From the IMG/VR virus record IMGVR_UViG_3300031785_000025, positions 1 through 33,922 of that record: 33,922 bases of DNA; one strand, 5' to 3'. The notes beneath the pieces were generated by a model that was not told the origin of the DNA, did no database searches, and worked only from the letters and a program-made list of their open reading frames with translations. The stretch is from a virus. The translations under genes and the position numbers were made by a program. This document shows, in pieces, positions 26,308 to 30,962 of this stretch (position 1 is the first letter of the stretch; each line of letters starts with the position of its first letter).

Positions 26308-27543
26308 TTAATTAAGTACCTCCAATGCTTCTTTCTCTTTAAGTAACTTGTAATCATCACCTCTATTATACTTTTTCAAATCCAGAGAATACTGTTTAGA
26401 ACCAGACCTCGTATTTGCATAATCTGATCTTTGTGGTGGAGCAATAACAGTTATTGTTTCCGAAACATTCTTTGGAGTTATTTTATCAAGATTGAGTTTA
26501 TTTTTTCCCTCTATTGTCAATTTGTCGTTTTTTATCTTTTCCCCTGCATTATTAACCTGTTGATTAACCTTACCTACCATGTTATTTTGTTTCTTTTCTA
26601 AGTTATTCTCATCACTTGTGCTTGAATAGTTTTTTCTATATTTAACTTCAGTAGGATCTATACCAAATTTTTCAAGAGCAGCACTAATCTCCTCTTTAGT
26701 ATCATACTCTGAAGGATTTTTCTGAACCTCATTCTTAATCATTTCGTATAATCCAGGTCCAAACTTAGAAACAACAAGATCTTTATTATCATCTAATACA
26801 ACCAATGGATCAACTTTTACACTACTACTACCACTACTTGATGTTTCGTCATCACCCTCTTTATCCTCTTTATTATTTTTATCATCACTTTCTCCCCCTT
26901 CAAACTCCTTATCAAGTTCTTTGCTCTTTTCTGGATTCTCAAAAACTTCCTCTGCACCAGTAATAGCACCACTTAATTTTTGCCAACCTAATTCTACATC
27001 AGAAAATGCTTCTTTTAATCTTCCCGACTGATCTGTAAAATCAAATTCTAATATATTTTTTCCAAACGCAAGAACTGTTTTAGCTATACCTTTTACAACA
27101 TCAATACTTCCCGTAACAAAATCTCCTATTCCCTTCCAAACTTCTTGGATTTTCTTTATTGCTTTTTCAACTGTATCTTTAATATTATCAATATTTTTAA
27201 ATAACCAAGCACCCGCAAGGAGTCCAACTATTTTTAACACACTACCAAAAAGATTTCTACCAGTTTTTACAATAGATTCTTTAATATTAGAGAATGCTGA
27301 GACATTAGGTTTTTCTAGTCTTTCTTCTTCTGCTTCTTTTTGTCTTAGATCTTTTTGTTTTAATCTATTCTCTTTAAGAATCTCTAAACGTTTTCTTTTC
27401 AATTCATTTTCTTTTTGTAATGCTGTTTTTATTCCAATAGCAGATTTGGACATTGATTTAATACTATTTTTTAAACCACGAAACTTAGACCTCATAGAAT
27501 CTATGGGAGACTTTTTTCCTGGTGGTAATGCTGCTACTGCCAT
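26308..27543 (-). CDS. Tape-measure-like tail protein, second part
   Basis: This 411-aa protein begins with a basic segment, then a long charged coiled coil (residues about 40-78), a hydrophobic stretch at about 99-117 (LFGSVLKIVGLLAGAWLF), amphipathic helices to about 200, a very acidic low-complexity region (about 210-245) and a basic C-terminus. No enzyme motif is present. Helical, coiled-coil and hydrophobic segments between the tail-assembly chaperone and gp27 fit a tape measure or an inner hub component (the place of gp29 or gp28 in T4). It overlaps the preceding gene by TAATG. Confidence 0.6.
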   Translation of the reverse strand: MAVAALPPGKKSPIDSMRSKFRGLKNSIKSMSKSAIGIKTALQKENELKRKRLEILKENRLKQKDLRQKEAEEERLEKPNVSAFSNIKESIVKTGRNLFGSVLKIVGLLAGAWLFKNIDNIKDTVEKAIKKIQEVWKGIGDFVTGSIDVVKGIAKTVLAFGKNILEFDFTDQSGRLKEAFSDVELGWQKLSGAITGAEEVFENPEKSKELDKEFEGGESDDKNNKEDKEGDDETSSSGSSSVKVDPLVVLDDNKDLVVSKFGPGLYEMIKNEVQKNPSEYDTKEEISAALEKFGIDPTEVKYRKNYSSTSDENNLEKKQNNMVGKVNQQVNNAGEKIKNDKLTIEGKNKLNLDKITPKNVSETITVIAPPQRSDYANTRSGSKQYSLDLKKYNRGDDYKLLKEKEALEVLN

Positions 27544-28964
27544 TATGCTAAGTATGCGTTATACGTTGACCTTGAGAAATCATCATACAAATTTTCTCTG
27601 TTTGATGAACTAAGAATAGGTACACCATTATCTGCATTTGCCATTTGGTTCCCTTTCACATTTGATTTCTCATTAGCTTGAACCACATTTACCTTAACTG
27701 GTGGTTTACCAGTTGCTTTAAGATTTTCATAACTTTTATTTTCCATACCACTTATCTCAACATTATCTCCATTACCTGTGATATCAACTCCTTCATTATT
27801 AGCATCTCTCTTCAAGTCTGAATGTATAGATTGACCCATGGCAGAGACACTTAAGACACCCGAAATACCTTGCATACCTGGTATTAAACTGGTAATGGCA
27901 CCTGCAGTATATAATCCTGCACCCACCCAGTTACCTTTCATACCTTCACTTACAGCACCCCAAATATCAAGACCAGTACCAATAATAGGTATGGATCCTA
28001 AAATTCCTTTCTTAGCGATTTTACCTGCAGTTTTTTGTACTACTTTCTTACCAACTTCTTTTCCTGCTTTTTTACCCAAACCTAACATTTTCAATGCTTT
28101 TTTCAAAGGACCAGGTATTGCTTTTTTTATAGCAGCAAATGCCTTTCCCATTGAAGCCTTAATAACTCTTCCTGCAACTTTAAATGGAAAAGTTATAACT
28201 TTCCCAACTAATTTACCAATACTCCTGACAAAATTACCTGCAAGTTTTATCAAATTGCCTATGATTTTGTTGAAGAAATAAACTCCAGTTGTTACTTGTT
28301 GAAGAGCAGAGTTCAAATCTATACCCAACTCTTTCATCAACTCTCCATTACCATCTCTCCATGCATTAAACAATCTAAATGCTTTCTTTAAAATAAAACC
28401 ACCAAAGAGAAGCATTAGTCCTTTCTTCAACCCTTCAAAGAAACCAAATGTTTTCTTCTCTTGCTTCTCTACCTGTACTCCTGCTTCTTTTTCTAAATCA
28501 GACTCTTCTAATTCTGCCTCTGCCTCTTGTTTTTCTTTATTTTCAAGAAAAAGACTTTGTTGTTTTGCTAGTTCTTCTTGTATCTTAGTATCAACCTCAT
28601 TTCCTTTTATAATTACTTTTCTAATATTAGCAAGAGATGTTTGTATACTGGCAATACTAGACTCTAACGCATCTACTCTCTTAGTTAAATTATTAACTGG
28701 AGCAACTAAAGCACCACCCTCTGCTTGTACTCTCTTTTCTTCTATAGCACCTTTACCTGCTAATACTAAAGCACCCCCACCAATAGCCATTTTACTGGTT
28801 CTAGCTATTTTCTGTCTATTTTGTTGGGATAGAATACGACTTTTAAATATCTTCTTTCTTTCTGCGGGTGTCAAAATTCTTCCCGTAGCAGGATCTATCC
28901 CAGTATCTGCTGCATCCAGATTGGGATTATTACCTACATTGAAAAATTGATCGTTAACCGCCAT
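27543..28964 (-). CDS. Tape-measure-like tail protein, first part
   Basis: This 473-aa protein has coiled coil at about residues 88-170 (heptads around LTKRVDALESSIASIQTSLANI, then Glu/Lys-rich), a hydrophobic segment at about 178-195, basic amphipathic helices to about 320 and a second hydrophobic region at about 321-377 (ILGSIPIIGTGLDIWG onward). These features, and its place right after the frameshift chaperone pair, fit a tail tape measure, whose length sets the tail length in long-tailed phages. T4 gp29 is 590 aa; this protein is shorter and is followed by a second similar protein. The first 11 bases overlap the end of the 58-aa gene. Confidence 0.65.
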   Translation of the reverse strand: MAVNDQFFNVGNNPNLDAADTGIDPATGRILTPAERKKIFKSRILSQQNRQKIARTSKMAIGGGALVLAGKGAIEEKRVQAEGGALVAPVNNLTKRVDALESSIASIQTSLANIRKVIIKGNEVDTKIQEELAKQQSLFLENKEKQEAEAELEESDLEKEAGVQVEKQEKKTFGFFEGLKKGLMLLFGGFILKKAFRLFNAWRDGNGELMKELGIDLNSALQQVTTGVYFFNKIIGNLIKLAGNFVRSIGKLVGKVITFPFKVAGRVIKASMGKAFAAIKKAIPGPLKKALKMLGLGKKAGKEVGKKVVQKTAGKIAKKGILGSIPIIGTGLDIWGAVSEGMKGNWVGAGLYTAGAITSLIPGMQGISGVLSVSAMGQSIHSDLKRDANNEGVDITGNGDNVEISGMENKSYENLKATGKPPVKVNVVQANEKSNVKGNQMANADNGVPILSSSNRENLYDDFSRSTYNAYLA

Positions 28965-29130
28965 TTACACCATTTTTTAAATTTTCTTCTTCAATATACT
29001 GAGATAAGAGAGTTACATATACTTCTCTTTCCCAAGGCATCATATTTTCTAACTCCGTTAATGAATATTTATGATGCTGCATGAGGGCAAAATTCGTCTT
29101 AAAGTATGACTCAAGAGATTCATGAGCCAT
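28954..29130 (-). CDS. Tail-assembly chaperone T-domain (58 aa), probably made as frameshift fusion
   Basis: This short frame begins MAHESLESYFKTNFALMQHH and contains YSLTELENMMPWEREVYVTL, ending NLKNGVNGG. The Leu-x-x-Met-Met-Pro-Trp-Glu-Arg type segment is typical of the short second part of tail-assembly chaperone pairs, which contacts the tape measure. The reading frame is -1 relative to the upstream 238-aa gene and lies just past its stop. A slippery T TTT TTC at 29139-29145 would fuse the two into a protein of about 298 residues. It could also start alone at ATG 29128-29130, but no good ribosome site is seen at the right distance. The end overlaps the 473-aa gene. Confidence 0.8.
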   Translation of the reverse strand: MAHESLESYFKTNFALMQHHKYSLTELENMMPWEREVYVTLLSQYIEEENLKNGVNGG

Positions 29131-29132
29131 GG

Positions 29133-29849
29133 CTACTCGAAAAAAGACGATAACCCTTCTAAAACGATATGATTAGTAACTTTAGTTTTAGGATTAACTA
29201 TATCAAAAGTATGTTTTAACTTCGGCATAGTCTCAAAAAATGTCTCAATTTTTTTGAATTGTTGAGAATTAAGTTGTTCAAGAAAAGTAGTTAATTCTTT
29301 CTTTGTACAATCAGAGGCAGAAAATGATTCCTCTGGACTAAAAACTTGATCAATACACTCAGCAATCAATTCAAAAGTATCTTCTACCGAAACATTCTCA
29401 TCATTAAAATTGGATTTAATAAATTGCCCTAAAGAAGGGTACTTTAACCTTAGAGTGTAATTACTATCTAAAACTACATCCTTATCATGATCTGGATCTA
29501 CATCAAATGTTATTTGATCTATATCAATTAATACAGGAACTTGTGTTACTCCATCATCTGGACAAGTAATATTAATCTCAACTTGCTCTCCAACAGATTT
29601 ACCACGAATATGTAAAAATAAATATTCTATCTCAAAAGTTGGTAGTTTGTCTACTTTAATACCTCTTGTTAATATACAACTAGAGAGAACATCTTTAACA
29701 GCACGACCAATTTGTTTTTCATCTTGACTCTCCATTGCTATAACAAGAATTTTTTCTTCTTTAACAAGGAAAGGTCTATATTTTACAGTTTTTTTCGTAA
29801 CAGGCAACTCTAACTCATACGTTGGAGTTGTAATGGTTGGTAAAGGCAT
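29133..29849 (-). CDS. gp26: Tail-assembly chaperone / gp26-like baseplate hub assembly protein
   Basis: This 238-aa protein begins MPLPTITTPTYELELPVTKK followed by VKYRPFLVKEEKILVIAMES, a strong signature of the T4-like baseplate hub family usually annotated gp26 in cyanophages. Its middle contains EIEYLFLHIRGKSVGE and a CPDD motif typical of that family. The C-terminal half is helical and ends LSSFFE. Together with the following 58-aa frame and the slippery site it behaves like the G/GT chaperone pair that loads the tape measure in lambda-like phages. The gene is separated by 51 bp from the gp54-like gene. The family is well supported; its exact job is inferred. Confidence 0.8.
   Translation of the reverse strand: MPLPTITTPTYELELPVTKKTVKYRPFLVKEEKILVIAMESQDEKQIGRAVKDVLSSCILTRGIKVDKLPTFEIEYLFLHIRGKSVGEQVEINITCPDDGVTQVPVLIDIDQITFDVDPDHDKDVVLDSNYTLRLKYPSLGQFIKSNFNDENVSVEDTFELIAECIDQVFSPEESFSASDCTKKELTTFLEQLNSQQFKKIETFFETMPKLKHTFDIVNPKTKVTNHIVLEGLSSFFE
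29139..29160 (-). other. Probable programmed -1 ribosomal frameshift site
   Basis: On the minus strand a heptamer T TTT TTC (29139-29145) is placed in the correct frame (TCT TTT TTC GAG TAG) two codons before the stop of the 238-aa gene. A -1 slip gives CGA GTA GCC and then continues in frame into the ATG of the 58-aa gene. An internal Shine-Dalgarno-like AGAAGGG (29154-29160) lies 8 bases upstream, similar to the stimulator found before the dnaX slippery site of E. coli. I did not model a downstream RNA structure. Confidence 0.7.
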
Positions 29850-29900: not shown

Positions 29901-30962
29901 TTATTTTACCATCTCCATCTTTACATCTATCTTTCCATAATAAACACTCATATATCCATCTGGTTGTAGTGCAACAGCTTCTGGATGTCTTTCAAGTATC
30001 TCTTGTGCCATAACACCACGATATCTTTGTGTATTACCCTTGTAATTCCACTCGTATATATTGATACCAGATGGTGAGTTTCCTACCTTAGTAATATTCT
30101 CTTTTAATCTAACATCACTTGCCATAGGACCATACTGTTGTCCTGGTGGTGCTGTGTCGGAATAATTATTCTTTTCAGCATTCGTGCCACGACCAGGACC
30201 GATCTTAGATGGATCTAAAGATTCTTCTATGAGTCGATCTTCAGCATCAGGTCTTGTAACATCAGTTTGGTTTGCCATTTCTTTAAGTTCTGCGACAGTA
30301 AGGTTATTAAATCCTGCACCACTACGATACTTAGATATATTACTTATAGGTCCGCAAACATAACGAGTGTATTCAAAAGTGGCAGAGGCAGTTAAAATCT
30401 TAGACGCATCATATCCAACTTGAACAGCACTTACGTTTTGTGGAAACAAATTAAAGAAAGTATACTCCAGACTACTACTATAATCTCTTTCAAACTTAAT
30501 TATCTTAGTTTCTTCCATTCTATAATCATCAGGATACTGCATCCTTATGTAATAATTTGTTTTATTTTGAGTAATAGGTCCTGTTCTTCCACCAGGTGCA
30601 TGAGTTCCACCTGCAGTATATTCCATCCAATGCTCTAAAAATTTTATAACCTTATACTCTTTATCAACGTAAAAATTAAGATTAATTGGTATAAATGTCC
30701 TACTATGTGCAAATTTCTCTGTTATTCCTGTAAATGCACCTGTTATGTTAGTAGTAGCGATTGATGAAAATGGTAATGATGCTTGATTACATAACAAACC
30801 CATCTCTCCTATTATGAATCTCTTATCTACTCCTCTACTCCTTAAATATTCACTTAATCCTCCAGCTGCTCTACCAAAACGAACTTCGTAATGAGAAGTT
30901 TGAGCCAGATTAGTTAGAGTTGGTTTGAAATCACTTATTCTTTTTGGTCTCGGTTTTTCCAC
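29901..30962 (-). CDS. gp54: Tail-tube-fold baseplate protein (gp54-like) with C-terminal S74 chaperone
   Basis: The start is GTG at 30960-30962; an in-frame stop lies four codons upstream and no ATG is available. Residues 1-205 of the 353 match the tail-tube fold of T4 gp19 and gp54: SHYEVRFGRA, LCNQASLPFSSIAT, a hairpin around RTFIPINLNFYVD, then HWMEYTAGG, and paired strands around YYIRMQYPDDYR and TASATFEYTRYV. Tail tube initiator gp54 is the best match by operon place, just before the chaperone and hub genes. A Pro/Gly linker (240-280) leads to a short S74 domain from S282 (SDVRLK, dyad S282-K287; GVMAQEILERHPEAV), ending at residue 353 without a long coiled coil. Confidence 0.72.
   Translation of the reverse strand: MEKPRPKRISDFKPTLTNLAQTSHYEVRFGRAAGGLSEYLRSRGVDKRFIIGEMGLLCNQASLPFSSIATTNITGAFTGITEKFAHSRTFIPINLNFYVDKEYKVIKFLEHWMEYTAGGTHAPGGRTGPITQNKTNYYIRMQYPDDYRMEETKIIKFERDYSSSLEYTFFNLFPQNVSAVQVGYDASKILTASATFEYTRYVCGPISNISKYRSGAGFNNLTVAELKEMANQTDVTRPDAEDRLIEESLDPSKIGPGRGTNAEKNNYSDTAPPGQQYGPMASDVRLKENITKVGNSPSGINIYEWNYKGNTQRYRGVMAQEILERHPEAVALQPDGYMSVYYGKIDVKMEMVK

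Follow-up and report, generated by a model that had tools for sequence, protein, structure and literature searches.

A probable programmed -1 frameshift joins the gp26-like and gp51-like frames of a T4-like phage tail assembly chaperone locus

At one locus of a T4-like phage, a gp26-like gene ends at a TAG stop codon and a short gp51-like open reading frame follows after two further bases, which raises the question whether these are two genes or the two halves of one that are joined by a change of reading frame. The stretch of DNA analysed here (hereafter the window) comprises 33,922 bases from a virus record and may be a fragment. Its minus strand reads TTA GAA GGG TTA TCG TCT TTT TTC GAG TAG CC ATG at the end of the gp26-like ORF. 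The original prediction had described a heptamer T_TTT_TTC in the right frame near the TAG of the 238-aa gene, an AGAAGGG sequence 8 bases upstream of it, and a -1 frame that is open into the ATG of a 58-aa frame. All three were found where they had been placed (Table 1). Translated in the -1 frame, the junction reads FF-R-V-A-M-A-H-E and continues without a stop codon through the 58-aa ORF, giving a predicted long product of 298 aa. On the strength of the sequence comparisons described below, we consider a programmed -1 frameshift at the gp26/gp51 junction very probable (roughly 0.93). The mechanism is supported by the conservation of the junction, by gp51 frames that have no start codon nearby and, modestly, by a fold match.

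Table 1 Features of the junction and its surroundings in the window.
Feature	Position	Strand	Basis
TAC-N, gp26-like short tail assembly chaperone, 238 aa	29133..29849	-	PF12322, phrog_150, predicted fold of residues 1-86
-1 frame from the candidate slip site: FFRVA + gp51-like TAC-C	28954..29145	-	translation; phrog_634; phrog_150 C-terminal end; homology upstream of the ATG to FF
58-aa gp51-like ORF, stop codon included	28954..29130	-	translation
Candidate slippery heptamer T_TTT_TTC	29139..29145	-	in frame of the 238-aa ORF; kept among relatives
SD-like AGAAGGG	29154..29160	-	8 nt upstream of the heptamer
0-frame stop TAG of TAC-N	29133..29135	-	one codon between heptamer and TAG
Possible hairpin, 8 bp (arms 29130-29123 / 29113-29106, loop 29122-29114)	29106..29130	-	pairing over 114 sequences
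Next gene, 473 aa (P0003)	27543..28964	-	position would fit a tape measure

Both reading frames could be assigned to families. The 238-aa ORF matches PF12322 (T4_baseplate, E 1.8e-71) and phrog_150 (E 9.2e-75), which places it in the same family as T4 gp26 and gp51. The 58-aa ORF matches phrog_634 (E 2e-27), annotated 'baseplate hub assembly catalyst' as gp51 is, and in addition the C-terminal end of phrog_150 (E 1.1e-4). Searches of the PDB by sequence gave no convincing relative of either protein (E 0.11 at best for gp26, 0.32 for gp51), and a Foldseek search of the PDB with the AlphaFold2 model of the gp26-like protein (mean pLDDT 86.5) gave no significant match, the HK97 tail assembly chaperone 2ob9 standing at E 2.8. 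When the Foldseek candidates, 971 chains in all, were aligned structurally to the model, 2ob9 came first: residues 1-86 of the model align to it over 84 residues with Z 7.6, where the limit of the tool is 8, and an rmsd of 4.3. YqbN (3klu) came second with Z 7.2; the next chain reached Z 4.6 and all others fell below 3. This suggests that the gp26-like protein is a TAC-N, with support from the predicted fold that is independent but modest. In T4, gene 26 and gene 51 are divergent, and gene 25 follows gp26. T4 gp51 covers columns 13-280 of the 282 of phrog_150 and also matches phrog_634, while T4 gp26 covers only columns 14-235; judged from these profile matches, the two appear to be the short and the long chaperone form encoded as two genes.

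An alignment of the junction in relatives, which the original prediction had put forward as its check, bears out both the heptamer and the -1 phase. Two scans of IMG/VR that were independent of the slip site, one with a gp26 query and one with the gp51 ORF, gave 160 loci, with many contigs found by both. Four loci were set aside before counting: L016 and L031, which have no gp51 match and whose contigs end 46 and 34 bases past the gp26 match, L024, in which gp26 and gp51 are fused in frame, and L137, in which the end of gp26 is deleted. The remaining loci together with the window comprise 114 distinct 100-nt junctions, and TTTTTTC occurs at the same place, with gp51 in the -1 phase, in 114/114 of them. 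We also surveyed a wider set, made up of the close loci, 20 isolate regions and five clade scans, which amounts to 496 analysed sequences with 380 distinct junctions; as the five clade-scan queries begin with FF, this survey is partly biased and not independent of the slip site. Here, gp51 is in the -1 phase in 379 of the 380 junctions and T_TTT_TTN (T6N) is present in 374 (356 with C as last base, 12 with T, 4 with A and 2 with G). Among the isolate regions, the -1 phase of gp51 is seen in 20/20 and T6N in 17/20, the exceptions being Vibrio phage D493 and two Serratia Ackermannviridae.

Six junctions of the wider survey do not have T_TTT_TTN. Four of them (L442, L172, L176 and L178) keep the -1 phase with shorter T runs. 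In two of these loci, both from Ackermannviridae, the sequence is GGTTTTC at positions 1650-1656 of L178 (Serratia 2050H1) and GATTTTC at 1692-1698 of L176, gp51 being in the -1 phase; GGTTTTC resembles the motif of T7 gene 10. The other two are L024 and L137, each represented by one contig and perhaps the result of sequence errors. In L024, a 236-kb contig, gp26 and gp51 share one frame (about positions 2205-2225), with two bases missing at the slip site compared to L027; the contig may contain an error here, or the phage may produce the long form alone. The sets of 375 and 147 sequences that are used in the following were chosen for having T6N. Among the 375 junctions, the 0-frame stop codon lies 3 nt past the heptamer in 341. 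It lies 24-27 nt after the heptamer in 20 others, found in L167 (Mosig, positions 901-934) and similar loci, so that the short form there has a tail of 8-9 residues encoded by the same bases as the C domain.

Could the protein alone account for the heptamer, with Gly-Leu-x-x-Phe-Phe being kept for its own sake and the nucleotides following as a by-product? The two Phe residues are in fact invariant or nearly so in an alignment of 61 sequences. However, other Phe-Phe codon pairs in the 114 gp26 genes are spelled T_TTT_TTC in only 1/114 and T_TTT_TTT in 2/114, and in all 114 unselected junctions T is the last base of the codon preceding the Phe pair, though the residues encoded by this codon differ. 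T4 gp26, whose downstream neighbour is gene 25 instead of gp51, keeps the Phe pair but spells it TTC TTT, and the residues alone thus do not force the heptamer. Chance estimates and counts of the residues before FF were taken from T6N-selected sequences and for that reason were not relied on. Judged by codon usage, conservation of the heptamer is far above chance, and we regard chance or protein constraint as an exceedingly improbable explanation.

The frameshift signal of E. coli dnaX consists of a Shine-Dalgarno (SD)-like element about 10 nt upstream, a heptamer and a downstream hairpin. The first of these has a counterpart here, the AGAAGGG of the window lying at a comparable distance. An SD-like core is present in 323/375 junctions and absent in 52, compared to 7.6% of phase-matched gp26 windows, a background that is unmatched for the conserved Glu-Gly. 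The G-rich stretch is in part conserved because these residues are conserved; the choice of codon for the Glu is nevertheless uneven, as it is GAG rather than GAA in 104/114 junctions versus 31% elsewhere in these genes.

But is gp51 perhaps a gene of its own, translated by termination at the TAG and reinitiation at a nearby start (TAG CC ATG), so that two proteins and no fusion are made? Since the gp51 frame of the window has its own ATG, 2 nt after the stop codon, separate initiation is possible there; 224/375 distinct junctions have a start codon no more than 12 codons from the slip site, and gp51 is a separate gene in those isolate records that annotate it, with a join flag or joined gene in 0/20 isolate regions. 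In the other 151/375 junctions, however, no ATG, GTG or TTG occurs within these 12 codons. A later start exists in them, for example an ATG at codon 19 in 89, inside the conserved domain, and could initiate a shortened gp51. Peptide conservation argues against a start at the Met of the window as well, as it runs without a break from the slip site through this Met, which aligns with Leu in many relatives. Reinitiation would also leave unexplained why the conservation of the heptamer extends to its nucleotides, and 23 nt separate the end of the G-rich stretch from the ATG of the window, too great a distance for normal initiation. The isolate annotations themselves are uneven: in the syn9 record the start of gp51 is placed 60 bases past the slip site, and for S-WAM1 no gp51 is recorded, as would be expected if gene finders seek a start codon that is absent. 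Reinitiation in place of frameshifting therefore seems very unlikely to us, while both could coexist in phages that have the ATG. The products would differ in the window protein: only the frameshift product is predicted to yield the tryptic peptide VAMAHESLESYFK and also VTNHIVLEGLSSFFR with Arg at its end in place of ...FFE, whereas separate initiation of gp51 is predicted to give AHESLESYFK with or without Met.

Downstream of the heptamer, the sequences point to a hairpin, of which the original prediction made no mention. RNAalifold returned no structure for the alignment of 114 sequences, and a stem read by eye was for that reason assessed with pair counts and shuffles. The 8-bp stem of the window is paired in 87.9% over the 114 sequences, compared to 19.0-48.4% when slid, and a 10-bp stem of the window's clade in 85.3% of cells, compared to 24.8-42.4% when slid, an advantage that is partly built in, the stem having been picked from the very sequences in which it was then counted. 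One position of the clade's stem occurs as U-A (58), G-C (22) and A-U (18) among the 114, and covariation in this clade comes mainly from one pair. Around four reference loci, 71-94% of cells are paired in the reference structure versus 26-54% when it is slid, with two-sided changes, and around a fifth (L237) 68.9% versus 36-58%; these counts too are partly built in, since each structure comes from one member of its clade. Three tree-based tests of covariation gave concordant to discordant pairs of about 5:0, 4:0.1 and 0.6:0, which is the right direction but not significant (best p 0.0625). A search of Rfam gave one sub-threshold hit (13.4 bits versus a gathering score of 68, E 0.81).

Scans of folding free energy are a fairer test of the hairpin than pair counts. 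We scanned 147 representatives at 80% identity in 40-nt segments from position -240 to +140. The strongest signal came from the segment starting 5 nt after the heptamer, whose mean stability exceeded that of dinucleotide shuffles by 3.9 kcal/mol; for segments clear of the slip site the excess was at most 1.4 kcal/mol. Shuffles of synonymous codons gave p < 0.05 in 48% of the representatives at the junction, compared to 6-14% at nine control positions. Helices of at least 7 bp do not by themselves single out the junction: they were present there in 92/147 representatives versus 34-77/147 in control segments, and 49 of these 92 start 4-9 nt after the heptamer. For single sequences, the z-scores were -7.69 for S-WAM1, -6.50 for S-PM2, -4.53 for P-SSM2 and -2.57 for S-H34, with stems that differ between lineages. 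The hairpin of the window taken alone was not significant (z -1.40, 16/200 shuffles as good), and syn9 (z -0.01), pelagiphage Mosig (-0.95) and PVA8 (-1.22) have no hairpin beyond chance; among the 32 weakest representatives listed, many come from the syn9 and Mosig queries. Taken together, folding and pairing suggest that the hairpin is real in many cyanophage-type lineages, as a putative stimulator that comes and goes.

The length of the T run and the flanking elements also bear on the question which enzyme would slip. Transcriptional slippage, in which RNA polymerase would miss out or insert bases on the T run, leading to a mixed pool of mRNAs, would suit a site that consists of such a run, and runs of 7 or 8 T do occur in 12/374 distinct T6N junctions. 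The run is exactly six in the other 362, though, and a run of six T is short for transcriptional slippage; in addition, an SD-like element before the run and a hairpin after it suit the ribosome better than the polymerase. We thus judge slippage of the polymerase highly improbable and return to the ribosomal frameshift.

The slip itself, its rate, the effect of the stimulators and the role in assembly we infer as follows. The gp26-like gene and the gp51-like frame would form one tail assembly chaperone locus. Most ribosomes would stop at the TAG and release the short form TAC-N of 238 aa. A minority, carrying tRNA-Phe on TTT and TTC, would slip back by one base at T_TTT_TTC and make TAC-NC of 298 aa, composed of residues 1-237, RVA and the 58-residue C domain. 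The SD-like stretch and, in many relatives, the hairpin about 4-9 nt downstream would probably raise the frequency of the slip, as in dnaX. If lambda G/GT is a guide, the short form may bind the tape measure, and the C domain may recruit tail tube subunits.

For the cyanophage-type T4-like phages as a group, we consider it more probable than not that they carry a signal of three parts with a near-frozen heptamer, that the hairpin has been rebuilt in different lineages with compensating changes, some of which alter a Glu, Ala or Val of gp51 to keep the pairing, that the annotated 'gp51' is no independent gene but the end of gp26 read in the -1 frame, and that T4 genes 26 and 51 are a later replacement of the frameshift.

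The genes around the junction were inspected as well. The next gene had been thought to look like a tape measure, and its position would fit one; the assignment could not be confirmed, as searches of Pfam, PHROGs and NCBIfam linked P0003 to no tape-measure family and tblastn against the phage collection gave no hit at all. The annotation of phiM12 notes similarity to tape measures for the gene two places after gp51. The second gene after gp51 in the window (26308-27543, minus strand, 411 aa) has weak hits to endolysin and tape-measure families, and together with P0003 it may make up a tape measure divided over two genes, similar to the pair of hypothetical genes that P-SSM2 has in the corresponding position. 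Just upstream of the chaperone locus lies a tail tube-like gene (29901-30962, minus strand; phrog_45, PF23849) with a C-terminal Peptidase_S74 domain (residues 282-330, E 1.2e-6). Among 172 sequences with a tail tube-like gene, the window included and duplicates kept, the S74 part was matched only in the window; elsewhere this domain is mostly found on tail fibres.

If true, the frameshift would mean that two core tail genes of marine T4-like phages need to be reannotated as a pair, and it would link T4 genes 26 and 51 to the chaperones of the lambda type. It would also provide a natural series of hairpins of differing strength for studying how the proportion of short to long chaperone is determined.

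How does this locus compare with known systems? In lambda G/GT the slippery site is G_GGA_AAG, whereas here it would be T_TTT_TTC together with the SD-like element and, in many relatives, the hairpin. The three-part layout is that of dnaX, with stimulation predicted in the present case; unlike in dnaX, the protein is an unrelated one and the shift would lead to a longer product, not a shorter one. A review of 2016 describes, in its available part, the G-T frameshift as widespread and widely conserved 'except T4' (PMC5009743). According to the accessible portion of a later article, poly-T sequences are known -1 signals in the TAC-N genes of T4-like phages, a finding credited there to Vladimirov, Gautam and Davidson 2022 (Virology 566:9-15) (PMC12846349). 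The original prediction, which assumed that such a shift was not generally described in T4-like phages, hence is supported in its mechanism, a -1 frameshift of the G/GT chaperone type, but not in its novelty: frameshifting in T4-like chaperone genes had already been proposed, so that the central idea is not new and the surprise is modest. The downstream hairpin and the often start-less gp51 are possibly details of our own, as we did not find them described in the literature searched, including the available parts of PMC10885494, PMC12846349, PMC12671138, PMC5009743 and PMC3711429; this is weak evidence of absence, and they may well be in print. Some T4-like phages use two genes, a short and a long one, instead of a frameshift, which is likewise credited to Vladimirov et al. 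2022 in the portion available of PMC10885494, and T4 gp26 and gp51 as two genes agree with these two-gene phages. A parallel in what is accessible of PMC12846349 is Pseudomonas phage Adele of the Vandenendeviridae, in which a -1 shift at the T-rich GTTTTT, conserved over the family, takes place at the end of TAC-N. As at the present locus, a -1 shift is thus assigned to a T-rich site ending TAC-N, and the C part of Adele is annotated as a separate hypothetical gene. The phage family and the slippery motif differ, and a hairpin is not mentioned for Adele in that portion (PMC12846349), while one is suggested here for many cyanophage-type lineages.
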